This document shows, piece after piece, positions 6,852-31,653 of a DNA stretch of 39,754 nt; positions within the stretch are counted from its first letter, which is position 1; each line of letters begins with the position of its first letter. The translations under genes were made by a program, and so were the position numbers. The stretch is from the NCBI GenBank assembly GCA_024642365.1, contig JAHEBE010000003.1, positions 1 to 39,754 of the forward strand, read 5' to 3'. The notes beneath the pieces are model-generated. The model made no database searches. It had not been told where the DNA came from and saw nothing but the letters and a program-made list of their open reading frames with translations. This DNA comes from Algoriphagus sp. Lineage in GTDB: Bacteria; Bacteroidota; Bacteroidia; Cytophagales; Cyclobacteriaceae.

Positions 6852-6935
6852 TACCAGGAGCGGGAATCGAACCCGCACGGGATTGCTCCCACAAGATTTT
6901 AAGTCTTGCGTGTCTACCTATTCCACCATCCCGGC
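6852..6935 (-). tRNA. tRNA-Leu(TAA)
   Basis: Minus strand GCCGGGATGGTGGAATAGGTAGACACGCAAGACTTAAAATCTTG...GGTTCGATTCCCGCTCCTGGTA; 7-nt loop CTTAAAA with anticodon TAA; long variable arm. Confidence 0.96.
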
Positions 6936-7003: not shown

Positions 7004-7076
<73 letters not shown>

Positions 7077-15053: not shown

Positions 15054-15590
15054 CTAAATTTTAACCTGTTGTAAACCTGGTAATTGGACATGGCCTAAAT
15101 GATGCATCCCATGCCATGCATACATTAACGCCACTTCTCCCAGTGTTTGCGAGCGTTTCTTTTCTGGATGATAAAAGGTTTTTTCAAAATCATCCGCCCT
15201 CATTGAATTCAGAAGCACTCCCCACTTGTAATGAACTGCCTCAATGATTGCTAATGAAGAATCAATTTCCAGCTTTGAGTCAGGTAGATCCGCCCAAGCC
15301 GCTTCATCATAACCCTTCACTGTCGGATTATCCTCTGTTAGCGCCAATTTATATCGGATAAACGCATTCATGTGACTATCTGAAATATGGTGAATCACCT
15401 GTTTGATCGTCCATCCACCTGGTCTATAGGGTGTAGCTAAATATTTTTCGTCTTTATCCGCAAGTGCAGACTTTAGATATTTTGGAAATTGGATCAAGTA
15501 ATCCACCGCCTCTTTGATTTGGTTTGAATCGATGGAATTAGGCACAACAAATCTTCCAACTGGGTATTTTAAATGTTCGATGTCTATCAT
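15054..15590 (-). CDS. DinB/YfiT-family putative metal-dependent hydrolase or thiol transferase
   Basis: TPYRPGGWTIKQVIHHISDSHMNAFIRYKLALTEDNPTVKGYDEAAWADLPDS; WHGMHHLGHVQLPG. Confidence 0.88.
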   Translation of the reverse strand: MIDIEHLKYPVGRFVVPNSIDSNQIKEAVDYLIQFPKYLKSALADKDEKYLATPYRPGGWTIKQVIHHISDSHMNAFIRYKLALTEDNPTVKGYDEAAWADLPDSKLEIDSSLAIIEAVHYKWGVLLNSMRADDFEKTFYHPEKKRSQTLGEVALMYAWHGMHHLGHVQLPGLQQVKI

Positions 15591-18286: not shown

Positions 18287-18712
18287 ATGGCTATTCAATT
18301 CTTTTCAGAAGACGTTTCTTTCAATTTGCCTAACAAACAAAAAAGAAAGGCCTGGCTTAAAGAATTAGCAAAGACAGAATTATTCAAAATCGTTGAACTG
18401 AATTATATCTTCTGTTCTGACACTTATCTCCACCAAATCAACCTAGAATATCTAAACCACGATACTTATACAGATATTATCACTTTTGATAATTCTGAAA
18501 CTGAAGGAAAAATAGAAGGAGATATTTTTATCAGTATTGATCGAGTTAAGGAAAACGCAAGCCATCATCAAGTGGACTCAGAAACAGAATTGAGCAGGGT
18601 AATTAGTCATGGGTTATTTCATCTACTTGGATATAAAGACAAGTCAAAAAAAGATGTTGAAATGATGAGAAGCAAAGAAGAGTTAGCAATAACTCTATTC
18701 AGCGGAATGTGA
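18287..18712 (+). CDS. ybeY: Endoribonuclease YbeY
   Basis: DTYTDIITFDNSE, GDIFISIDRVKENA, SHGLFHLLGYKDKSKKDVEMMRSKEE. Confidence 0.92.
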   Translation: MAIQFFSEDVSFNLPNKQKRKAWLKELAKTELFKIVELNYIFCSDTYLHQINLEYLNHDTYTDIITFDNSETEGKIEGDIFISIDRVKENASHHQVDSETELSRVISHGLFHLLGYKDKSKKDVEMMRSKEELAITLFSGM

Positions 18713-18713
18713 A

Positions 18714-18729
18714 AGTTCCACGTGAAACA
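18714..18729. promoter_or_regulatory. Degenerate parS-like site AGTTCCACGTGAAACA (14/16 to consensus)
   Basis: Two mismatches to TGTTTCACGTGAAACA, right half perfect. Confidence 0.65.
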
Positions 18730-18752: not shown

Positions 18753-18768
18753 TGTTTCACGTGAAACA
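18753..18768. promoter_or_regulatory. parS: parS centromere site, exact 16-bp palindrome TGTTTCACGTGAAACA
   Basis: Exact match to the ParB/Spo0J parS consensus, 16 bp upstream of mnmG. Confidence 0.92.
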
Positions 18769-18784
18769 CATAAGATAAAACAGA

Positions 18785-20650
18785 ATGTTTCCAATATATG
18801 ATGTCATCGTAGTAGGAGCGGGCCATGCTGGTTGCGAGGCCGCACATGCTGCAGCAAAGATGGGTTCTAAGGTGCTGCTTTGTACGATGAATATGAATAC
18901 CATCGCGCAAATGTCTTGCAACCCTGCAATGGGCGGTGTGGCAAAAGGGCAGATCGTAAGAGAAATAGATGCGCTAGGAGGAATGTCAGGGATAATCTCA
19001 GATAAGTCCATGATTCAATTTAGGATGCTAAATAGATCAAAAGGGCCTGCAATGTGGTCGCCTAGAAGTCAAAATGACCGAATGAAATTTGCTGAAGAAT
19101 GGCGCTTAGCGCTAGAGCAAACCCCAAACGTAGATTTCTGGCAAGAAATGGTGACTGGTATTACTACCAAAAATGGTCAAGTGACTGGTGTCAGAACGGG
19201 CATAGGCTTGGAAATAGAAAGTAAATCTGTCGTACTTACAAATGGGACATTCCTAAATGGAATAATACATATTGGGGAAAAACAATTCGGAGGAGGAAGA
19301 ACTGGGGAAGCTGCTGCAAAAGGAATTACAGAACAATTGGTTGGTTTAGGCTTTGAAGCAGGTAGAATGAAAACAGGAACCCCTCCCAGAGTAGATGGCC
19401 GAAGCCTAGATTATTCCAAAATGGAGGTACAATTTGGAGACGAAGCACCTGAAAAATTTAGCTATTCAGATAAAACTAGCACGCTAAAAGAACAACGTAC
19501 TTGTTGGATTACCTACACCAATAAAGATGTTCATTCTAGTTTAGAAGAAGGTTTTGATAGATCTCCAATGTTTAATGGGCGAATTCAAGGTCTTGGTCCG
19601 CGTTATTGCCCGTCCATAGAAGATAAAATCAACCGATTCGCCGAGCGTGATAGACATCAAATATTCGTGGAACCAGAAGGGTGGAATACTGTGGAGATGT
19701 ATATAAATGGCTTTTCAACCTCACTACCTGAAGACATACAATATAAAGCGATGCGTAAAATCCCTGGATTTGAAAATGCTAAAATGTTCAGACCTGGATA
19801 TGCCATTGAGTATGATTTCTTTCCTCCAACTCAATTGAAATTAACCCTGGAAACCCAATTAATTGAAAATCTGTATTTCGCAGGACAAATAAATGGGACT
19901 ACAGGATATGAAGAGGCGGCATCGCAAGGCTTGGTAGCAGGAATAAATGCTTCCTTGAAAACTCAAGAAAAAGATCCCTTCTTACTCAAACGCTCCGATG
20001 CATATATCGGCGTTTTAATTGATGATTTGATCAATAAAGGCACAGAGGAGCCTTATAGAATGTTTACATCACGAGCAGAATTCAGGTTGTTACTAAGACA
20101 AGACAATGCTGATCTTCGACTCACTCCAATGGGCTACCAAATTGGTTTAGCAGATGAATTGAGGCTTGAAAATGTGAAGAAGAAAAAAGAAGAAACCTCA
20201 AAGTTGATCAATGATTTAAAACAGAAAAAAGTAAATCCAGAGCAAATCAACAAAGGTTTAGATGAAATAAACTCAGCCTCAATCAGGGAAAAAATATCAT
20301 TGGAAAAACTACTCAAAAGACCACAAGTTGGTATTCAAGAATTGAGTCAAATGGATCCGGAACTCAAAAAATACTTTGATACGTATTCAAAAGATGTGCT
20401 CGAACAAGCAGAAATTCAAATCAAGTATGACAGCTATATAGAGAAAGAGCAACAAATGGTCGAGAAGATTAGCAACATGGAAAATTATAAGATTCCTACC
20501 AAATTTGATTATCACGCCATTACTGCCCTTTCGGCTGAAGGAAAACAGAAATTAAGCAAGATTAGACCAGAAACGTTAGGACAAGCATCTCGGATTAGTG
20601 GTGTTTCTCCTGCGGACTTATCCATAATTACCGTATACCTTGGACGATAA
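18785..20650 (+). CDS. mnmG: tRNA uridine-5-carboxymethylaminomethyl modification enzyme MnmG/GidA
   Basis: YDVIVVGAGHAGCEAAHAAAKMG, SCNPAMGGVAKGQIVREIDALGG, RMKTGTPPRVDGRS, GQINGTTGYEEAASQGLVAGINA. Confidence 0.97.
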   Translation: MFPIYDVIVVGAGHAGCEAAHAAAKMGSKVLLCTMNMNTIAQMSCNPAMGGVAKGQIVREIDALGGMSGIISDKSMIQFRMLNRSKGPAMWSPRSQNDRMKFAEEWRLALEQTPNVDFWQEMVTGITTKNGQVTGVRTGIGLEIESKSVVLTNGTFLNGIIHIGEKQFGGGRTGEAAAKGITEQLVGLGFEAGRMKTGTPPRVDGRSLDYSKMEVQFGDEAPEKFSYSDKTSTLKEQRTCWITYTNKDVHSSLEEGFDRSPMFNGRIQGLGPRYCPSIEDKINRFAERDRHQIFVEPEGWNTVEMYINGFSTSLPEDIQYKAMRKIPGFENAKMFRPGYAIEYDFFPPTQLKLTLETQLIENLYFAGQINGTTGYEEAASQGLVAGINASLKTQEKDPFLLKRSDAYIGVLIDDLINKGTEEPYRMFTSRAEFRLLLRQDNADLRLTPMGYQIGLADELRLENVKKKKEETSKLINDLKQKKVNPEQINKGLDEINSASIREKISLEKLLKRPQVGIQELSQMDPELKKYFDTYSKDVLEQAEIQIKYDSYIEKEQQMVEKISNMENYKIPTKFDYHAITALSAEGKQKLSKIRPETLGQASRISGVSPADLSIITVYLGR

Positions 20651-21551
20651 AACCACAGAAAGATTAGCCAAATGCCCACTATGTAAAAGTGGGCTTTTTC
20701 TTAATGCACTTGAGGTAACTGATCACGCCGTAAGCAAGGAAGTATTTATCATATGTAAATGCACCAATTGTGAAGTTCTATTTACTAGTCCGAGACCAAA
20801 AGCATCAAGTATTGGACGGTACTATGATTTCCCAGAGTATTATTCTCATGATGATTCAAGAAAAAGCTTTACTCAAGTAATCTATCAATATGTTAGAGGT
20901 CTCGCCATAGGGAAAAAGGTGAAGATGATTGATTCCTTAGTAAAAAAGAAAGGAAATTTATTAGACTATGGTTGTGGTACTGGAGAATTTCTTTGGCATG
21001 CCAAACAAAATGGATGGAATGTAAGTGGGGTAGAACCAAATGAAAAAGCGAGGGTTTTGGCTAGCAAAAAAATGGAAAATAACATTGTTGCTAGCCTAGA
21101 TGACTTGCATGAGGCACATTCATATGATGTAATTACACTCTTTCATGTTCTTGAACATGTCCATAAGCTTAGAAAAACTGTCAAGAAACTTATAACAAGC
21201 TTAAAATCAAATGGTTATATCATTATTGCCATCCCAAATCCAGAGAGCTACGATGCCAAAAAATATGGAGATAAATGGGCTGCATGGGATGTACCAAGAC
21301 ATCTTTATCATTTTAATTCCAAATCCATGAAGTCTTTCCAAGAAATTTTTGGGTTAAAGCTAGTAGAACAAATAAAAATGCCTTTTGACAGTTACTACGT
21401 TTCATTATTATCCGAATCATATCTCAATCCGAATGCTTCAAGTCTTAAAAAATATTGGAAAGCGTTTTTTTCTGGACTTAAATCAAACAATGCAGCAAAA
21501 GGAAAACCAGGGAATTATTCGAGTACTATCTATTTATTTAAAAAGAAGTAA
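20640..21551 (+). CDS. Class I SAM-dependent methyltransferase with N-terminal Zn-ribbon
   Basis: CPLCKS...CKCTNC; LLDYGCGTGEFLWHAKQNGWNVSGVEPN; TTG start overlapping mnmG by 11 bp. Confidence 0.87.
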   Translation: MDDKTTERLAKCPLCKSGLFLNALEVTDHAVSKEVFIICKCTNCEVLFTSPRPKASSIGRYYDFPEYYSHDDSRKSFTQVIYQYVRGLAIGKKVKMIDSLVKKKGNLLDYGCGTGEFLWHAKQNGWNVSGVEPNEKARVLASKKMENNIVASLDDLHEAHSYDVITLFHVLEHVHKLRKTVKKLITSLKSNGYIIIAIPNPESYDAKKYGDKWAAWDVPRHLYHFNSKSMKSFQEIFGLKLVEQIKMPFDSYYVSLLSESYLNPNASSLKKYWKAFFSGLKSNNAAKGKPGNYSSTIYLFKKK

Positions 21552-21552
21552 A

Positions 21553-23223
21553 GTGAGAAATCTGATTGTCCTTTTCTTAGTCATTCTCATTTCCTCTTGT
21601 GCTAAACAAAGTACGCCAATGGGAGGACCTAGAGACCTAGATCCTCCAAAGGTAATTAGTATGAGCCCAGAAAATAATAGCCTCAATTCAACGCCAAAAG
21701 AGATAGAACTCGTGTTTGATGAATATATCAAACTAGATAATGCAACAAAAAATATAATAATCACTCCCCGCGTAAATAAGGACGAGGTAATCGTATCAGC
21801 TTTAAAAAACATTGTTACAATTGAGCTCAATCAAGAATTGGAGGATAGCACGACTTATGTTTTCAATTTCCAAAAATCAATTCAAGATCTTTCTGAAGGG
21901 AATCCTGCTGAAAACCTAAAGCTCGTTTTTTCTACAGGTTCAAGTATTGATAGTTTAACTTTTTCTGGATCAGTAAATACCTATTTCCCGGATGCTAGAG
22001 ATCCATTTGAAAACTTGCTGATTGGTTTATATGAAGCAAATGATACCACTGATTTATTTACTGCGAGTCCTTATTACATTTCACAAACGGATAGCACTGG
22101 TAATTTTACAATTACGAACATCAAAGCTGGTAGCTATCGAGCCTATGCCTGGAAAGACGCAAATAACTCGCTGAAGGCAGAATACAAATCCGAACTATTT
22201 GATTTCATCCCTGATACATTAACGATCAATCAAAATATCAGTGATGTAACTTTTAACTTAGCCAAAGGTGATCAAACACCAATTAGAATACTTAGATCAA
22301 GTCCGGTAGGATTAAGTTATGATGTAATTTTAAACAAGAATCCAATCAGCATTGATCTAGAGACGGAAGAATTAGGAAAAAGTATTTTTTACTCTGAATC
22401 AGATAAGCGAATCAGCCTCTATTCCAAAAGCCCATTAACGGATAGCATACCTATGAAAATCCAATTAGCGGATTCCGTAGGCAATACTATAGATTCTTTG
22501 ATTTGGTCAAAATTTGAACCTTCCGAACGAAAAAAAGAGGAATTAACTATTCAACCTAATTCTGGTAAAAGCTTCTACCAAAACTTAGCAATAGAATTAA
22601 AATTTAACAAACCCATAATCGATATCAATACAGACTCACTATTTATCTCCTACGATACGGCATCTGTTATCCCTGTTACTAAGCAAATGCTAGCTTTTTC
22701 CGATTCTTCAAGAAGAGATAAATTGTTAATTAGTCTAGTCATTGCTGATTCACTCGCTCAGGAAATATTTACGTTAAATGCGAAGGATTCTACTTTTCAA
22801 GACATCGAACAGGTCTATAATAAGGATCCATTAAAAGCGAACTATCGAAAATTAAAGCGAGAGACATTAGCCGACGAAATCTCCGGATCTATTCTAGGCA
22901 CAAGTGGTCCTTACATTGTACAACTCCTAAATAAGGATGAAATCAAACGAGAACTATACCTACCTACTGGCAATACCTTTTCGTTTGCACTTATAGAAGC
23001 AGGAATTTATCAAATTAGAGTCATTGCCGACAGTAATGGAAATAAACGCTGGGATCCAGCAAACTTTGAATCAAAAAGATTAGCTGAACAGGTTTTCTAT
23101 TTCGAGGATGAAGATCAAAGTAAGGACATAACCATAAGAGCCGGATGGACAGTTCCTGCTCAACTCATAGTAGCTAGACCAAAAACAGGAATAAATACTC
23201 AAAATACTCAAGTGGATAACTAG
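21553..23223 (+). CDS. Ig-like-domain lipoprotein (probable GTG start)
   Basis: MRNLIVLFLVILISSCAKQSTPMGGPRDLDPPKVISMSPENNS; lipobox ISSC; Big_5-like region. ATG ORF at 21385 would overlap the methyltransferase by 167 bp. Confidence 0.85.
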   Translation: MRNLIVLFLVILISSCAKQSTPMGGPRDLDPPKVISMSPENNSLNSTPKEIELVFDEYIKLDNATKNIIITPRVNKDEVIVSALKNIVTIELNQELEDSTTYVFNFQKSIQDLSEGNPAENLKLVFSTGSSIDSLTFSGSVNTYFPDARDPFENLLIGLYEANDTTDLFTASPYYISQTDSTGNFTITNIKAGSYRAYAWKDANNSLKAEYKSELFDFIPDTLTINQNISDVTFNLAKGDQTPIRILRSSPVGLSYDVILNKNPISIDLETEELGKSIFYSESDKRISLYSKSPLTDSIPMKIQLADSVGNTIDSLIWSKFEPSERKKEELTIQPNSGKSFYQNLAIELKFNKPIIDINTDSLFISYDTASVIPVTKQMLAFSDSSRRDKLLISLVIADSLAQEIFTLNAKDSTFQDIEQVYNKDPLKANYRKLKRETLADEISGSILGTSGPYIVQLLNKDEIKRELYLPTGNTFSFALIEAGIYQIRVIADSNGNKRWDPANFESKRLAEQVFYFEDEDQSKDITIRAGWTVPAQLIVARPKTGINTQNTQVDN

Positions 23224-23671
23224 AGATAGAACTGTGGATAAGAGTTAGATTAATTCTCATTTAAGATCAGTTACCAACAGCTGTATCAAAGCAAAATATC
23301 TATTTCATACATACTGGGGATAAACCTCAACTTATCCACTCAATCAACTCATCTAATCCACAGCTGATTTTTCAACAAAGAATTTAAAATTACTAATCCA
23401 CCAAATCAGCCCAAATAACCTACATTTCAGCAAATCAACAGTTTAGATGTGGATAAGAAAAGGATAACCTGTTAATAGAAAGAATTAACCATTAGCTAAA
23501 AAGTTGACAAGATTTTAAACAGCAGTTTTCAACAAATCCACACACTTAATAACCATAAAAGGAATTTTTTAAAAAATATTTTATTTCAACTATTATAAAT
23601 AAGAGCTGTGGATAAATCTTTTAATTTCAATTTAGCTTTGGTATTATTATAGGAACCCGAAATATCTAAAA
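23211..23671. other. oriC: Candidate chromosomal replication origin (oriC)
   Basis: Perfect DnaA boxes at 23233-23241(-), 23448-23456(-), 23607-23615(-); one-mismatch boxes at 23211-23219(-), 23315-23323(-), 23332-23340(+), 23354-23362(+); A/T-rich stretch 23563-23600. Confidence 0.85.
23563..23600. other. Candidate DNA unwinding element, 36/38 A/T
   Basis: aattttttaaaaaatattttatttcaactattataaat next to the perfect DnaA box at 23607-23615. Confidence 0.65.
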
Positions 23672-25423
23672 ATGGAAATATCTCGAATATTTGATCTAAT
23701 CCCTTACCAAATAGCCACGTTTGATAAGGAGATTGCATTAGCTAAAAAACATAATAATTCTTGGACTACTTTTTCATCAAGGAAAGTAAAAGAGCTAGTT
23801 GATAAGCTCAGTCTAGCATTTATCGATCATGGAATTAAAGCTGGTGAGAGAGTTGCGCTAATTTCAAATAATTGTCCGGAATGGAATATAGTGGATATGG
23901 CTTTACAACAAATTGGAGCCATTTCAGTCCCAATGTATCCTACCATTACTTCCGCGGATTACGAATATATTTTTAATCATTCTGAGGTTAAAATGATCTT
24001 TGTCGGAGATCAAGAAATATATCACAAAGCCAAAGGAGTCGCTTTAAATCGACCGATCGTTTCTTTTGACGATATCGAGGGAACAATCCCTTTTTATGAT
24101 TTTGTAGAAAAAGGGGCAAATGGTGATTTGCAAATCCTGGAGGATTCTAAAAATGCGGTAAAATCCTCTGACCTTTTTACAATCATCTATACCAGCGGTA
24201 CCACAGGCCGGCCAAAAGGGGTAATGCTTACGCATGAAAATGTAGTTTCCAATGTGCTCCAGGTCGGAAAGATATTTACACCGGAAAAAGGAACTTCAAG
24301 AGTTTTGAGCTTTTTACCATTGTGTCATATTTATGAGCGCTCCGCTTCTTTTGCTTACTTTTTTATGGGTTATGAGGTTTATTATGCAGAAAGCATGGAG
24401 ACGATAGGCGAAAATCTCAAAGAAATAAAACCTCATATTTTCAATACGGTACCTCGGTTATTAGAGAAAATCTATGATAAAATTGTGGCCAAGGGTTACG
24501 AATTGACCGGTGTGAAACGTGCCTTGTTTTTCTGGGCATTGAATCTTGGCTTGCAATATGATCCAGCAAAGGCTATGGGTGCTTGGTATGATTTCCAACT
24601 AAAATTGGCAAACAAGGTCATATTCAGTAAATGGAGAGAAGCCTTAGGAGGCGAAGTTCAGCAAATTAATTCCGGTGCTTCTGCTTTACAGCCGAGACTT
24701 GCGCGTGTATTTTGGGCTGCCGGTATCAAAGTCTGTGAGGGTTACGGTTTGACCGAAACGTCACCTGTAATATCTGCCTCCATCTGCAATTTTGAGGAAA
24801 TCAGAATAGGATGGGTTGGGAAGTTGATAGCTGATGTAGAAGTAAAAATTGCAGAAGATGGAGAAATTCTAGTCAAAGGCCCGAATGTCATGCAGGGATA
24901 TTATAAAGAACCTGACTTAACCGCAGAAGCACTCAAGGACGGCTGGTTCCATACGGGTGATATAGGGGAATTGGATGGTACTTATTTGAAAATTACCGAT
25001 CGGAAAAAAGAGATGTTTAAAACTTCGGGTGGTAAATATGTCGCACCTCAAGTATTGGAAAATAAATTTAAAGAGTCCAGTCTCATTGATCAGTTGGTAG
25101 TGGTTGGGGAAAATAGAAATTATCCGTCCGCATTGATTGTGCCTAGTTTCGAAGGACTAAAGGAGTATTGTAAACACAAAGGCATTCCATATACCTCGGA
25201 CTCGGAAATGATTGCCAAACCAGAAATCATAGAGAAATATGATCGAGAAGTTGAAAATGCCAACAAATTTTTCGCAAAATGGGAGCAGGTGAAGCGGTAT
25301 AAGTTACTTGGTAAATCTTGGTCCATTGAAACGGGTGAATTGACTCCGACGATGAAGCTTAAACGAAAAATCATTTATCAGAAATACGAGTCTGAAATTG
25401 AAAGCATTTATAAATCTGCTTAG
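23672..25423 (+). CDS. AMP-dependent long-chain acyl-CoA synthetase
   Basis: TIIYTSGTTGRPKGVMLTHENVVSN, GYGLTETSPVISAS, GWFHTGDIGELDGTYLKITDRKKEMFKTSGGKYV. Confidence 0.94.
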   Translation: MEISRIFDLIPYQIATFDKEIALAKKHNNSWTTFSSRKVKELVDKLSLAFIDHGIKAGERVALISNNCPEWNIVDMALQQIGAISVPMYPTITSADYEYIFNHSEVKMIFVGDQEIYHKAKGVALNRPIVSFDDIEGTIPFYDFVEKGANGDLQILEDSKNAVKSSDLFTIIYTSGTTGRPKGVMLTHENVVSNVLQVGKIFTPEKGTSRVLSFLPLCHIYERSASFAYFFMGYEVYYAESMETIGENLKEIKPHIFNTVPRLLEKIYDKIVAKGYELTGVKRALFFWALNLGLQYDPAKAMGAWYDFQLKLANKVIFSKWREALGGEVQQINSGASALQPRLARVFWAAGIKVCEGYGLTETSPVISASICNFEEIRIGWVGKLIADVEVKIAEDGEILVKGPNVMQGYYKEPDLTAEALKDGWFHTGDIGELDGTYLKITDRKKEMFKTSGGKYVAPQVLENKFKESSLIDQLVVVGENRNYPSALIVPSFEGLKEYCKHKGIPYTSDSEMIAKPEIIEKYDREVENANKFFAKWEQVKRYKLLGKSWSIETGELTPTMKLKRKIIYQKYESEIESIYKSA

Positions 25424-25520
25424 TGATTTTCTCTTGTTTCTTATGTTGAAAACAGAATTTGATTAGGATCAAAAAAAGTACTTTATTCTGATTTTGCTCT
25501 ATTCTCTTTAATTTATTCTG

Positions 25521-25560
25521 AATAATCCCATTACATCGGTATTTGTAATGGGATTATTTT
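25521..25560 (+). terminator. Terminator-like hairpin, 15-bp perfect stem, downstream of acyl-CoA synthetase
   Basis: AATAATCCCATTACA-tcggtatt-TGTAATGGGATTATTTT. Confidence 0.7.
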
Positions 25561-25592
25561 GTTTTAGGAGGTATTCCAGTTTTTTATTTGTG

Positions 25593-25633
25593 ATGCATGC
25601 ATAACTTTTTTGCAATTTAGTATGCATGCATAC
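25593..25633. promoter_or_regulatory. Paired palindromic operators upstream of marR-like gene
   Basis: ATGCATGCAT at 25593-25602 and GTATGCATGCATAC at 25620-25633 (core 25622-25631), 29 bp apart centre to centre. Confidence 0.7.
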
Positions 25634-25683
25634 AATTATTTTTATAAATTAGTAATCCAAAAAATGGAGAACTCTAAAAGCTA

Positions 25684-26154
25684 ATGAAACGCGAAGAAAC
25701 AGTCGATTACCATATCAAAAGTTCATGGCATGCAATTTCCCGAATGTACAATCAGAAAGCAGCATTGGAAGGCTTTACGACTGCCATCGGTTTTGTATTA
25801 ATTAATATTAACTCAAAAGAAGGAACTCCGGCAACCAAAATTGCTCCTCAAATCGGATTGGAAACAAGAAGCTTAACCCGAATGCTAAAAACGATGGAGG
25901 AAAAAGGCTTGATTTTCAAGAAGCCAGATTTAGTGGATAAGCGCTCTGTGAGAATTTATCTAACGGAAGAAGGAAAGCGGAAGAAGGAGAATTCTGTAAA
26001 AACGATTCGAGAATTCAATGAACAAGTCCGTACCGTGGTCAGTCAGGAAGAGTTGGATGTGTTTTTCTCGGTTTTCGATAAAATACAAGGAGTGATTGAT
26101 CAAGTTCAAATGGATAAGGAAATAAATCTTCAAAAAGAAATACTAGAATTTTAA
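25684..26154 (+). CDS. MarR-family transcriptional regulator
   Basis: APQIGLETRSLTRMLKTMEEKGLIFKKPDLVDKRSVRIYLTEEGKRKKE (winged HTH with DxR wing). Confidence 0.9.
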   Translation: MKREETVDYHIKSSWHAISRMYNQKAALEGFTTAIGFVLININSKEGTPATKIAPQIGLETRSLTRMLKTMEEKGLIFKKPDLVDKRSVRIYLTEEGKRKKENSVKTIREFNEQVRTVVSQEELDVFFSVFDKIQGVIDQVQMDKEINLQKEILEF

Positions 26155-26194
26155 CGAAATGGCCACTAGCCATTAACTACCAAAACCCAAAAAA

Positions 26195-28600
26195 ATGAAA
26201 AGAACCATTAAAAAAGTTGCCGTATTAGGCTCAGGAGTAATGGGATCCAGAATCGCCTGTCATTTCGCCAATATCGGTGTACAGGTACTTTTATTGGATA
26301 TCGTTCCTTTTGAACTTACCGAACAAGAACAAAAAAAGGGGCTAACTAAAGAAAGTCCTTTGGTAAGAAACAGAATTGTAGAGACCGCACTTCAAAATAC
26401 GTTGAAGTCTAATCCTTCTGCCATCTATGACAAGGCAAATGCTGCTCGAATAACTACAGGAAATTTTGATGATGATCTTCCAAAGATTAAAGATTATGAC
26501 TGGGTCATCGAAGTGGTTGTGGAGCGATTGGACATCAAACAACAGCTTTTTGAGAAAGTTGAAAAATACCGAAAGCCTGGAACTTTGATTACCTCAAACA
26601 CTTCAGGAATTCCTATGCATCTAATGTGCGAAGGAAGAAGCGAGGATTTTCAAGTTCACTTTGCAGGAACTCACTTTTTTAACCCGCCAAGGTATTTGAG
26701 GTTGTTGGAAATTATTCCAGCTCCAAAAACCAAACCTGAAATCATCGACTTTTTGATGGAATACGGAGACAAGTTCTTAGGAAAAGAAACGGTTCTTTGT
26801 AAAGACACACCAGCATTTATAGCGAATAGAATCGGAGTTTATGCGATTATCTCTGGGATGCACGCCATTGAAAAAATGGGTTTTGGCGTATCAGAAGTAG
26901 ATAAATTAACTGGTCCAGTGATCGGAAGAGCGAAGTCTGCTACTTTCCGAACCATGGATGTGGTTGGCTTGGATACTACGGTCAATGTGTCGAACAACTT
27001 ATATAAAGCGCTTCCACACGATGAATCAAGAGATAAGTTTAAGCTTCCAAAAATCGTAGAGGTACTTTACAACAATAAATGGTTCGGAGATAAAACCGGT
27101 CAAGGTTATTTTAAAATGATCCGTCATCAAGACGGAACAAAGGAATTAAAAGAGCTTGACTTCAATACTTATGAATACAAGCCGGTCGAAAAACCCAAGT
27201 TTAAAGCTCTTGAAGCTTCAAAAGAAATAGAAGATCTAAAGAAACGAATCAAGTTTCTAGTCAATTTCGATGATCGAGCTGGAGAGTTTTACAGAGCCTC
27301 CTTCTATGATTTATTTAAATACTGTTCGCATCGAATTCCTGAAATCTCCGATGAACTTTATCGAATTGATCAAGCAGTAAGTTCTGGTTTCGGATGGGAG
27401 CTTGGACCTTTTGAAACCTGGGATGCTTTAGGTGTCAGAGAGACAGTTTCTAAAATGGAAGCAGCAGGAGAGCCGGCGGCAAAGTGGGTTCATGAAATGC
27501 TCGCTGCTGGCCATGAGTCATTCTATAAAGTAGAAGGTGGCAAAAAACTTTACTACGATATTCCTACCAAGTCGTTTTTAGAAATTCCAGGAATTGAGAA
27601 TTTCATCATTTTGGATACGTTGAAGGCCGCAGGTAAGAAAATCTGGGGAAATGCCGGAGCTTCTGTTTACGACATGGGTGATGAGGTGATCGGATTGGAA
27701 TTTCATTCAAAAATGAATTCCATGGGTCAAGAAGTGATCGAAGGAATCAACACAGCGATATCGATGGCTGAGAAATCCTACAAAGGACTAGTAATCGGAA
27801 ACGAGGGTGGAAATTTCTCCGCAGGTGCTAACCTAGCCATGTTATACATGTTTGCAGGTGATCAGGAATATGATGAAATCAATTTGATGATCGCCCAATT
27901 TCAGAATACTATGATGCGGGCTAGATTCTCATCCGTACCGGTAGTGGTAGCGCCACATAATATGGCCTTAGGAGGCGGATGTGAACTTTCGCTTCATTCT
28001 GACCATATCCAAGCGCATGCTGAATTATACATGGGCTTAGTGGAAGTTGGTGTGGGATTGATTCCTGCCGGCGGAGGAACGAAAGAGATGACCCTTAGAT
28101 TCTCAAATAGTCTGATTGATGGTGATGTAGAGGTAAATCAACTTCAGGAGTATTTTATGAATATCGCTACTGCTAAAGTTTCCACTTCAGCAGCCGAGGC
28201 GAAAGGCTTGGGATATTTGAGAAAAGATGATGGAATTACCCTGAATAGAAAACGACAGTTGGCTGAAGCAAAGGCGAAAGTATTGGAACTGCATGCGGCA
28301 GGATATACTCAACCGATTCAGCAAACCAATATCAAAGTTTTAGGAAAAACATCTTTGGCTTTGTTTGAAGCTGGAATTACAGGGATGCGATATGGCGCTT
28401 ACATTTCAGAGCACGATGCGTTGATCGCTCGCAAATTGGCTTGGGTAATGTCTGGAGGAGACCTTTCTTCACCTACATTGGTTTCTGAGCAATATTTACT
28501 TGATCTGGAGCGAGAGGCTTTCTTGAGTTTGACTGGCGAAAAGAAAACACTGGAACGAATTCACAGCATTTTGTTCAAAGGCAAACCGCTTAGAAACTAA
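26195..28600 (+). CDS. Bifunctional 3-hydroxyacyl-CoA dehydrogenase / enoyl-CoA hydratase, FadN-like domain order
   Basis: N-terminal KVAVLGSGVMGSRIACHFANIGVQVLLLDI; THFFNPPRYLRLLEIIP; C-terminal crotonase GGNFSAGANLAMLY...ALGGGCELSLH. Confidence 0.93.
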   Translation: MKRTIKKVAVLGSGVMGSRIACHFANIGVQVLLLDIVPFELTEQEQKKGLTKESPLVRNRIVETALQNTLKSNPSAIYDKANAARITTGNFDDDLPKIKDYDWVIEVVVERLDIKQQLFEKVEKYRKPGTLITSNTSGIPMHLMCEGRSEDFQVHFAGTHFFNPPRYLRLLEIIPAPKTKPEIIDFLMEYGDKFLGKETVLCKDTPAFIANRIGVYAIISGMHAIEKMGFGVSEVDKLTGPVIGRAKSATFRTMDVVGLDTTVNVSNNLYKALPHDESRDKFKLPKIVEVLYNNKWFGDKTGQGYFKMIRHQDGTKELKELDFNTYEYKPVEKPKFKALEASKEIEDLKKRIKFLVNFDDRAGEFYRASFYDLFKYCSHRIPEISDELYRIDQAVSSGFGWELGPFETWDALGVRETVSKMEAAGEPAAKWVHEMLAAGHESFYKVEGGKKLYYDIPTKSFLEIPGIENFIILDTLKAAGKKIWGNAGASVYDMGDEVIGLEFHSKMNSMGQEVIEGINTAISMAEKSYKGLVIGNEGGNFSAGANLAMLYMFAGDQEYDEINLMIAQFQNTMMRARFSSVPVVVAPHNMALGGGCELSLHSDHIQAHAELYMGLVEVGVGLIPAGGGTKEMTLRFSNSLIDGDVEVNQLQEYFMNIATAKVSTSAAEAKGLGYLRKDDGITLNRKRQLAEAKAKVLELHAAGYTQPIQQTNIKVLGKTSLALFEAGITGMRYGAYISEHDALIARKLAWVMSGGDLSSPTLVSEQYLLDLEREAFLSLTGEKKTLERIHSILFKGKPLRN

Positions 28601-28639
28601 GCGCTCAGGAAATCTTATTTAACATCAAAAAAAATTCAA

Positions 28640-29815
28640 ATGGACGCATATATAGTAAATGGATATCGGTCGGCAGTGGGAAAATCTAAAAAAGGAGGTT
28701 TTCGATTTTACAGACCAGATGATTTAGCGGCAGATGTCATCAAGCATTTGATGGCAAATACTCCAGGTCTTGAAACCAAAATGATTGATGATTTAATCGT
28801 TGGGAACGCAGTACCTGAAGCCGAGCAAGGAATGCAAATGGGTCGAATGATCTCACTTTTAGCATTGGGAATTGACAATCCGGGATTTATAATTAACCGC
28901 TACTGCGGATCAGGATTAGAAGCGATTGCTTTGGCGGTAGGTAAAATCAAAGCTGGAATGGCGGATTGCATTATTGCAGGTGGAACAGAGTCAATGTCAC
29001 TTGTACCAATGATGGGTTACAAAACTGCGCTTAATTGGAAAATCGCAAAAGAGCACCCTTCCTATTACCTCAGCATGGGATTGACGGCCGAAGAATTGGC
29101 AAGAGAATATGAAATCACACGTGAGCAAGCAGATGCCTTTTCGGTGAAATCTCATGAAAAAGCATTAGCAGCAATCGCTGCTGGTAAGTTCAAAGATGAA
29201 ATTGTTCCTGTCGAAGTAGAAGAAACCTATTTGGATGAAAAGGGTAAAAAGAAAACCCGCAAATATGTCGTCGATACGGATGAAGGACCAAGACCTGGCA
29301 CGACCATGGAAGCCTTAGCTAGTTTGAGACCTGCTTTCAAAAACGGCGGACAAGTGACTGCCGGTAACTCTTCGCAAACTTCTGACGGAGCATCTTTTGT
29401 AGTGGTTATGTCAGAGCGAATGGTAAAAGAGTTGAACCTAGATCCAGTAGCTCGGATGATGTCTTACAGCGTAGCGGGAGTAGATCCACGAATCATGGGT
29501 ATCGGACCAAAAGAAGCAGTGCCCAAAGCATTGAAGCAAGCAGGCTTGACGCTTAATGATATTGACCTAATCGAGCTCAATGAAGCATTTGCAGCGCAAG
29601 GTCTTTCTGTGATGAAAGCTTTGGATATGAATCCGGACATCGTCAATGTCAATGGTGGTGCTGTGGCTTTAGGCCACCCACTGGGATGTACAGGAGCAAA
29701 ACTTTCTGTTCAGATTTTCAATGAACTGAGAAGAAGAGATAAAAAATATGGAATGGTTACCGCCTGCGTAGGTGGTGGTCAGGGTGTGGCTGGTGTTTAT
29801 GAGTTGCTTAAATAA
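28640..29815 (+). CDS. fadA: Acetyl-CoA acyltransferase (thiolase)
   Basis: RYCGSGLEAIALA, GGTESMSLVPMMG, ELNEAFAAQGLSVMKAL, NVNGGAVALGHPLGCTGAK, GMVTACVGGGQG. Confidence 0.95.
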   Translation: MDAYIVNGYRSAVGKSKKGGFRFYRPDDLAADVIKHLMANTPGLETKMIDDLIVGNAVPEAEQGMQMGRMISLLALGIDNPGFIINRYCGSGLEAIALAVGKIKAGMADCIIAGGTESMSLVPMMGYKTALNWKIAKEHPSYYLSMGLTAEELAREYEITREQADAFSVKSHEKALAAIAAGKFKDEIVPVEVEETYLDEKGKKKTRKYVVDTDEGPRPGTTMEALASLRPAFKNGGQVTAGNSSQTSDGASFVVVMSERMVKELNLDPVARMMSYSVAGVDPRIMGIGPKEAVPKALKQAGLTLNDIDLIELNEAFAAQGLSVMKALDMNPDIVNVNGGAVALGHPLGCTGAKLSVQIFNELRRRDKKYGMVTACVGGGQGVAGVYELLK

Positions 29816-29859
29816 TCCATCCGTATCAAATCGAAATAAAAACAGAAAACTAAAAGCAT

Positions 29860-31653
29860 ATGGCAACGCTAACAAAATCAACACAAGGAGGAGAATTCCT
29901 CATCAAAGATGTCAATTCAGGTGACATCTTTATCCCGGAGCAATTCACAGAAGAGCAGCGAATGATGGCTCAGGCGTGTCAGGACTTCATCGATACCGAG
30001 ATCACTCCAAACATCGAAGCAATTGACAGTATGAAAAACCCGGACTTAGTCCCTTCTATTTTCAAGAAGGCTGGCGATTTGGGTTTATTAGGTATCACTG
30101 TTCCTGAGCAATATGGTGGAATGGGAATGAGTTTCAATACCTCTATGTTGATCGCAGACATCATTGGAGCCGCAGGTTCTTTTTCTACTACTTATGGCGC
30201 TCATACTGGAATTGGTACCCTTCCAATTTTATATTATGGAAATGAAGCACAGAAATCAAAGTACCTTCCAAAGCTCGCAGTCGGCGAGTGGGCAGCATGC
30301 TACTGCTTGACGGAGCCGGATGCGGGTTCGGATGCCAATAGTGGAAAGACAAAAGCAACCTTGTCTGCTGATGGAAAACATTACTTGCTGAATGGTCAGA
30401 AAATGTGGATTTCAAATGCAGGCTTTGCGGACTTATTTATTGTTTTCGCCAAGATTGAAGATGATAAAAACCTCACCGCCTTCATTGTTGAAAAAACATT
30501 TGGTGGAATCACCATGAATGAAGAGGAAAAGAAAATGGGAATTAAGGGTTCATCCACCCGTCAGGTTTTCTTCAATGATTGCCCTGTTCCTGTCGAGAAC
30601 ATGCTTTCTGAACGGCAAAATGGTTTTAAGATCGCCGTGAATATTCTCAATATTGGACGAGTGAAACTAGGTGCAGGTGTGCTTGGTGGAGCGCGTACCG
30701 TTGCGAGTTTGGCGACTCAATATTCCACCGACCGAAAGCAATTTGGTGTCAGCATCAATTCCTTCGGAGCGGTGAAAGCAAAATTGGCCGAAATGGCTAC
30801 CCGAATTTTCGTGACCGAGTCGCTTTGTTACCGAGCAGGTCAGGATATTGAAGATCAAATCAATGCCTTGGTTGCAGAAGGAATGGATGAAACTGAAGCA
30901 AAATTGAAAGGGGTAGAAGCTTTTGCGATCGAATGTGCAATTGCCAAAATTCATGGTTCTGAAGTGCTGGACTACGTAGTAGATCAAGGCGTTCAAGTGT
31001 ATGGTGGTATGGGTTATTCGGCAGATGCACCTATGGAAAGAGCGTATAGAGACGCGAGAATCTCCCGTATCTATGAAGGAACAAACGAGATCAACCGAAT
31101 GCTGATGGTAGGAATGCTCTTGAAGCGTGCGATGAAAGGTGAAATCAATCTTTTCGAACCTGCAATGGCTGTATCGGCTGAATTGACAGGCGTTCCATCT
31201 TTTGAATCGATAGATAATTCTGAGCTTTTCGCAGCAGAAAAAGATGTCCTCAAGAAACTCAAAAAAGTGTTTTTGATGGTTGGAGGAAAAGCAGCGATGG
31301 CTCTTCAGGATAAAATTGAGGACGAGCAAGAGGTTATGATGAATCTTGCGGATGTGATGACCGAGATCTATGCAGCAGAATCTGGAATTCTACGAGCAGA
31401 GAAACTAGTGGGTATGAAGGGCGAGGCAGCTTGCAAAAATCAAATTGCGATGGCTCAGATTTACCTTTCTGAAGCAGTAGATAGAATAGCTATAGCAGCA
31501 AAAGAAGCGATCGGTAGTTTCACTAAAGGCGATGAGCAGAAGGTAATGTTGATGGGATTGAAGCGCTATACCAAAGCGGACTTGGTGGATACCAAAACAC
31601 TGAGAAGACAGGTTGCTGATTACATGATCGAACAAGGAAAATACCCGTTTTAA
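29860..31653 (+). CDS. Acyl-CoA dehydrogenase, FadE-like
   Basis: CYCLTEPDAGSDANSGKTKA, WISNAGFADLFIVFAKI, QVYGGMGYSADAPMERAYRDARISRIYEGTNEINRML. Confidence 0.94.
   Translation: MATLTKSTQGGEFLIKDVNSGDIFIPEQFTEEQRMMAQACQDFIDTEITPNIEAIDSMKNPDLVPSIFKKAGDLGLLGITVPEQYGGMGMSFNTSMLIADIIGAAGSFSTTYGAHTGIGTLPILYYGNEAQKSKYLPKLAVGEWAACYCLTEPDAGSDANSGKTKATLSADGKHYLLNGQKMWISNAGFADLFIVFAKIEDDKNLTAFIVEKTFGGITMNEEEKKMGIKGSSTRQVFFNDCPVPVENMLSERQNGFKIAVNILNIGRVKLGAGVLGGARTVASLATQYSTDRKQFGVSINSFGAVKAKLAEMATRIFVTESLCYRAGQDIEDQINALVAEGMDETEAKLKGVEAFAIECAIAKIHGSEVLDYVVDQGVQVYGGMGYSADAPMERAYRDARISRIYEGTNEINRMLMVGMLLKRAMKGEINLFEPAMAVSAELTGVPSFESIDNSELFAAEKDVLKKLKKVFLMVGGKAAMALQDKIEDEQEVMMNLADVMTEIYAAESGILRAEKLVGMKGEAACKNQIAMAQIYLSEAVDRIAIAAKEAIGSFTKGDEQKVMLMGLKRYTKADLVDTKTLRRQVADYMIEQGKYPF

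Follow-up and report, generated by a model that had tools for sequence, protein, structure and literature searches.

The region between positions 23211 and 23671 of the stretch of DNA analysed here (39,754 nucleotides in total, hereafter the window) is predicted from its sequence, with near certainty, to be the origin (oriC) at which this Algoriphagus starts to replicate its chromosome. This reading, which the preliminary description had already put forward, is supported by the conserved anatomy of the region, with a DnaA-box array kept throughout the genus, by the GC skew, which flips at the orthologous loci of two complete congeners, and by the proximity of a unique pair of parS sites. The window is contig C104 of a 3.4-Mb genome in 483 contigs that is about 83% complete. 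The features on which the analysis is based are the following; for the boxes, the match retained at the same position in the genus loci is given in brackets.

18714-18729, no strand, parS-like site AGTTCCACGTGAAACA (sequence match)
18753-18768, no strand, parS site TGTTTCACGTGAAACA, a perfect palindrome (sequence match)
18785-20650, plus strand, mnmG/gidA (TIGR00136, E 1.2e-260)
21385-23223, plus strand, Big_5-domain protein gene, left neighbour of oriC (PF13205; found in 58/59 relatives)
23211-23671, no strand, predicted oriC, an intergenic DnaA-box array with an unwinding stretch (box counts; kept in genus and family)
23211-23219, minus strand, DnaA box 1, one mismatch, over the end of the Big_5 gene (at least 8/9 in 28/29 genus loci)
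23233-23241, minus strand, DnaA box 2, perfect, 22 bp from box 1 (at least 8/9 in 20/29)
23315-23323, minus strand, DnaA box TTATCCCCA, one mismatch (at least 7/9 in 27/29)
23332-23340, plus strand, DnaA box TTATCCACT, one mismatch (at least 8/9 in 20/29)
23354-23362, plus strand, DnaA box TAATCCACA, one mismatch (at least 7/9 in 26/29)
23394-23402, plus strand, weak DnaA box, two mismatches (at least 7/9 in 22/29)
23448-23456, minus strand, DnaA box, perfect (at least 7/9 in 23/29)
23526-23542, plus strand, tandem weak DnaA boxes TTTTCAACA/AAATCCACA, left of the unwinding stretch (at least 7/9 in 29/29 and 27/29)
23546-23562, plus strand, TTAATAACC-type repeat beside the tandem boxes, trio-like, with two NTN triplets in register (conserved)
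23563-23600, no strand, A/T-rich stretch (36/38), presumed DNA unwinding element (A/T-rich there in genus and family)
23607-23615, minus strand, right-hand DnaA box, perfect, facing the A/T-rich stretch (at least 8/9 in 25/29)
23672-25423, plus strand, AMP-binding acyl-CoA ligase gene, right neighbour of oriC (PF00501)

Within 461 bp the predicted oriC contains three perfect DnaA boxes, each of which reads TGTGGATAA on the plus strand, and four boxes with one mismatch, at a GC content of 28.6%. All seven had been listed in the preliminary description and were recovered at the same positions. In 2000 dinucleotide shuffles of the region, perfect boxes occurred 0.007 times on average (maximum 2, observed 3) and boxes with at most one mismatch 0.19 times (maximum 3, observed 7), which places the cluster far above chance. 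The A/T stretch of 36/38, likewise noted before, lies beside the boxes, and this value was reached nowhere else in the window. Box 1 falls on the final codons of the Big_5 gene. The true start of this gene probably lies downstream of 21385, because most alignments with homologues begin only near residue 50. An Rfam search at oriC matched no family.

The mnmG gene, which had been placed within 5 kb of the boxes, lies 2.6 kb from the first of them. According to the Big_5 protein, the nearest relatives are Algoriphagus species and the wider matches come from other Cyclobacteriaceae. Immediately to the right of oriC, genes for an acyl-CoA ligase, a MarR regulator and FadB-, FadA- and FadE-like proteins follow in a row (23672-31653) and constitute a fatty-acid oxidation set. 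Two tRNA genes were found by Rfam on the minus strand (6852-6935 and 7004-7076).

Both the position and the anatomy of the array are conserved in relatives. In 29 of the 30 genus loci compared (the thirtieth, L036, is incomplete) the same two genes enclose the array, in a gap of 439-497 bp. The average of the 29 aligned sequences has 14 box-scoring positions, several of them weak, in fixed order and orientation. The best-kept part consists of the tandem boxes ending ATCCACA, followed by TTAATAAC or CTAATAAC, the A/T-rich stretch and an inward-facing box, and the module of tandem boxes and TTAATAAC is kept across genera of the Cyclobacteriaceae. The named Cyclobacteriaceae loci have a median of seven boxes with at most one mismatch, L178 being without the region. 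Outside this family, several loci of the order carry arrays of up to 16 boxes 3' of the Big_5 gene, and no box group was found at the corresponding place in 8 of the 20 other-family loci.

GC skew was read in sampled 20-kb stretches of two complete congeners (G009 and G034), the genome of the window itself being split into contigs. In both, the skew turns from negative to positive at the orthologous locus and reverses about half a chromosome away, as the GC-skew test proposed earlier had called for. In G009 the arm up to 4.400 Mb is negative, and at the cluster there the value rises from -0.046 to +0.066, a flip within 20 kb; the skew turns back near 2.0 Mb of the 4.816 Mb, half a chromosome off. 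A few G009 stretches have the other sign. In G034 the flip near 0.61 Mb agrees within about 10 kb with the cluster at 0.618 Mb, and the skew turns back in the interval 2.40-2.73 Mb of 3.88 Mb. Among ten congeners, the 20 kb to the right of the array are positive (0.06-0.13) and the 20 kb to the left zero or negative. In G040, a 9-Mb genome of another family, the skew is too weak to be decisive. Perfect boxes are enriched around the locus, in G034 about 7-fold within 100 kb and 5-fold within 200 kb, whereas the enrichment in G009 is about 3- to 4-fold. Those of the boxes that were examined closely lie mostly inside genes; one, within a Gfo/Idh/MocA-type gene, is shared by this genome and G009 (L004:2792, L223:3262).

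The two parS sites, which the preliminary description had overlooked, are situated between an ORF at 18287-18712 and mnmG, 4.5 kb to the left of the array, and no third match with one mismatch was found anywhere in this genome. parS sites lie 4.4-4.8 kb to the left of oriC in 66/66 named Cyclobacteriaceae loci, these being all those long enough for the test, and in 10/10 congeners. The predicted oriC is thus near parS.

The dnaA gene is located on another contig (C406) of the same genome, in agreement with its reported absence from the window. The array is separated from dnaA by 1.04 Mb in G009, 0.98 Mb in G022 and 0.76 Mb in G034, which bears out the earlier warning that a dnaA-anchored search would miss this oriC. 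The record of the complete congener G022 (C1) starts at dnaA (base 400), about 1 Mb from the origin. With dnaA 0.76-1.04 Mb from oriC, records rotated to dnaA, such as that of G022, therefore begin at the wrong place in Algoriphagus, and growth estimates that take dnaA as the anchor for coverage would be inaccurate.

The location of the exact skew minimum could suggest that replication starts about 7 kb further left, near 16.3 kb of the window, and that the box array is a regulatory satellite. Nine of ten congeners have their cumulative-skew minimum to the left of the array, by 7.2-7.9 kb, and only G011 has it at the cluster; this offset corresponds to the place, near 16.3 kb, at which genes diverge (16290/16372). 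However, these diverging genes are only 81 bp apart, and the closest DnaA box with at most one mismatch is at 15454. Moreover, the ten-congener mean has a second, sharp skew change exactly at the array, from -0.064 in the 2 kb to its left to +0.125 in the 2 kb to its right, between two genes of the same direction, whereas the positive skew of the mnmG operon can come from its coding strand. We infer that the 7-kb offset of the minimum is an effect of this operon being co-directed. Skew at four-fold sites, determined gene by gene in the window, does not separate the 16.3-kb point from the array. Because no box group is present there, a start near 16.3 kb is considered very improbable.

It is extremely improbable that the array instead titrates DnaA or is a DnaA-regulated promoter while oriC lies elsewhere, for example at a group of perfect boxes on contig C164. 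The preliminary description had named an equal or denser box cluster at another locus as evidence against its own reading, and such a group, denser in perfect boxes, does exist on C164, with three perfect boxes in 106 bp (21684-21789) conserved in 57/61 genus genomes. Its orthologues, however, lie away from both the skew flip and parS: they are 67-305 kb from the array in the 13 genomes with both on one contig, and 114 kb (G009) and 163 kb (G034) from the skew flip. parS is present at the array and absent at the C164 element, which is also without an A/T-rich stretch bracketed by facing box modules. A start at this element is disfavoured because of its distance from skew flip and parS, and 23211-23671 remains the preferred oriC. 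Groups of perfect boxes on contigs C2, C387, C446, C475, C147 and C36 lie inside ORFs of at least 120 codons and were rejected. A plasmid origin was also considered; no similar plasmid sequence was found, and there is therefore no sign of one.

The C164 group belongs to an element (L001:7632-7790, corresponding to G000:C164:21631-21789) composed of three perfect boxes and a one-mismatch box and situated between the convergent genes for a ClC channel and mtgA in 30/30 loci examined. Its perfect boxes are arranged as follows.

C164:21684, 21761 and 21781, plus, minus and minus strand, ClC-mtgA perfect boxes (start spacing 77 and 20 bp)

The element is present in one copy per genome in the 57 genomes, including all 41 of good quality. 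Relative to the fork, its orientation is shared by 12 of the 13 genomes in which its distance from oriC was determined. Its location between convergent genes makes a promoter function for ClC or mtgA unlikely. In seven genomes from other Cyclobacteriaceae genera the exact-box pattern was not found, and in the three of these with an mtgA-like gene (46-61% identity) no box group was found beside that gene; an Rfam search at the element matched no family. By analogy, the element resembles the E. coli DARS core or datA, or the DnaA-box clusters of B. subtilis, and is a candidate DnaA-control locus. Like these, it is a non-coding, single-copy, oriC-proximal box group. In the DARS core, box I is opposite in orientation to boxes II and III (PMC5742627), and the same layout is found here, box 1 being opposite to boxes 2 and 3. 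It differs from DARS in that boxes 1 and 2 lie 77 bp apart start to start, and from the E. coli and B. subtilis elements in its location between convergent genes and in a different phylum.

The arrangement of the predicted oriC suggests how it may function. DnaA would load at the Big_5 end of the box array and would be directed from there to the tandem boxes (23526-23542) and the facing box (23607), after which it could extend onto single strands via the adjoining trio-like triplets. The A/T-rich stretch at 23563-23600 would thereby open, and unwinding might be able to start from both of its sides. Two helicases loaded at the opened stretch would establish bidirectional replication, and the parS pair 4.5 kb off would let ParB/ParA segregate the new origins.

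The predicted Algoriphagus oriC is nothing out of the ordinary as a structure and belongs to a group in which origins are readily assigned to the wrong place. A literature search found no described Algoriphagus or Cytophagales oriC; subscription papers and DoriC were outside its scope, and a database prediction may exist. We tentatively suggest, without great confidence, that Algoriphagus has a two-sided origin core, its unwinding modules facing each other over a single A/T-rich stretch, and in addition a separate single-copy ClC-mtgA control element of the DARS/datA kind; as far as this limited search goes, the latter would be the first control locus of its sort put forward in Bacteroidota. 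The analysis provides a well-defined, testable origin for a genus with dnaA far from oriC. The conserved array opens the way to oriC-plasmid and in vitro unwinding tests in Bacteroidota, and the conserved ClC-mtgA element opens DnaA control outside Proteobacteria and Firmicutes to direct test.

Compared with known origins, the predicted oriC shares with the gidA-mioC type of E. coli a DnaA-box array with an A/T-rich unwinding stretch, the vicinity of gidA/mnmG and a dnaA gene that is not adjacent. It differs in its neighbours, the Big_5 and acyl-CoA ligase genes, in its about 14 box positions in 461 bp and in the boxes that bracket the A/T-rich stretch, facing inward. The basal unwinding system (BUS), as in B. 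subtilis and other bacteria, is defined by a box, a spacer of at most 16 bp and at least three trios (PMC8287927). The right-hand module at 23607 has this composition, with a perfect box, a 1-bp spacer and six NTN triplets, which are NAN on the complementary strand as in BUS (PMC8287927). The left-hand module (23526-23562) falls short of it, with only two consecutive NTN triplets against the minimum of three: its tandem boxes are followed by TTA ATA, as in BUS, whereas the two trios end in a break (ACC). A further difference from BUS is that such a module seems to be present at both sides of the A/T-rich stretch in Algoriphagus.
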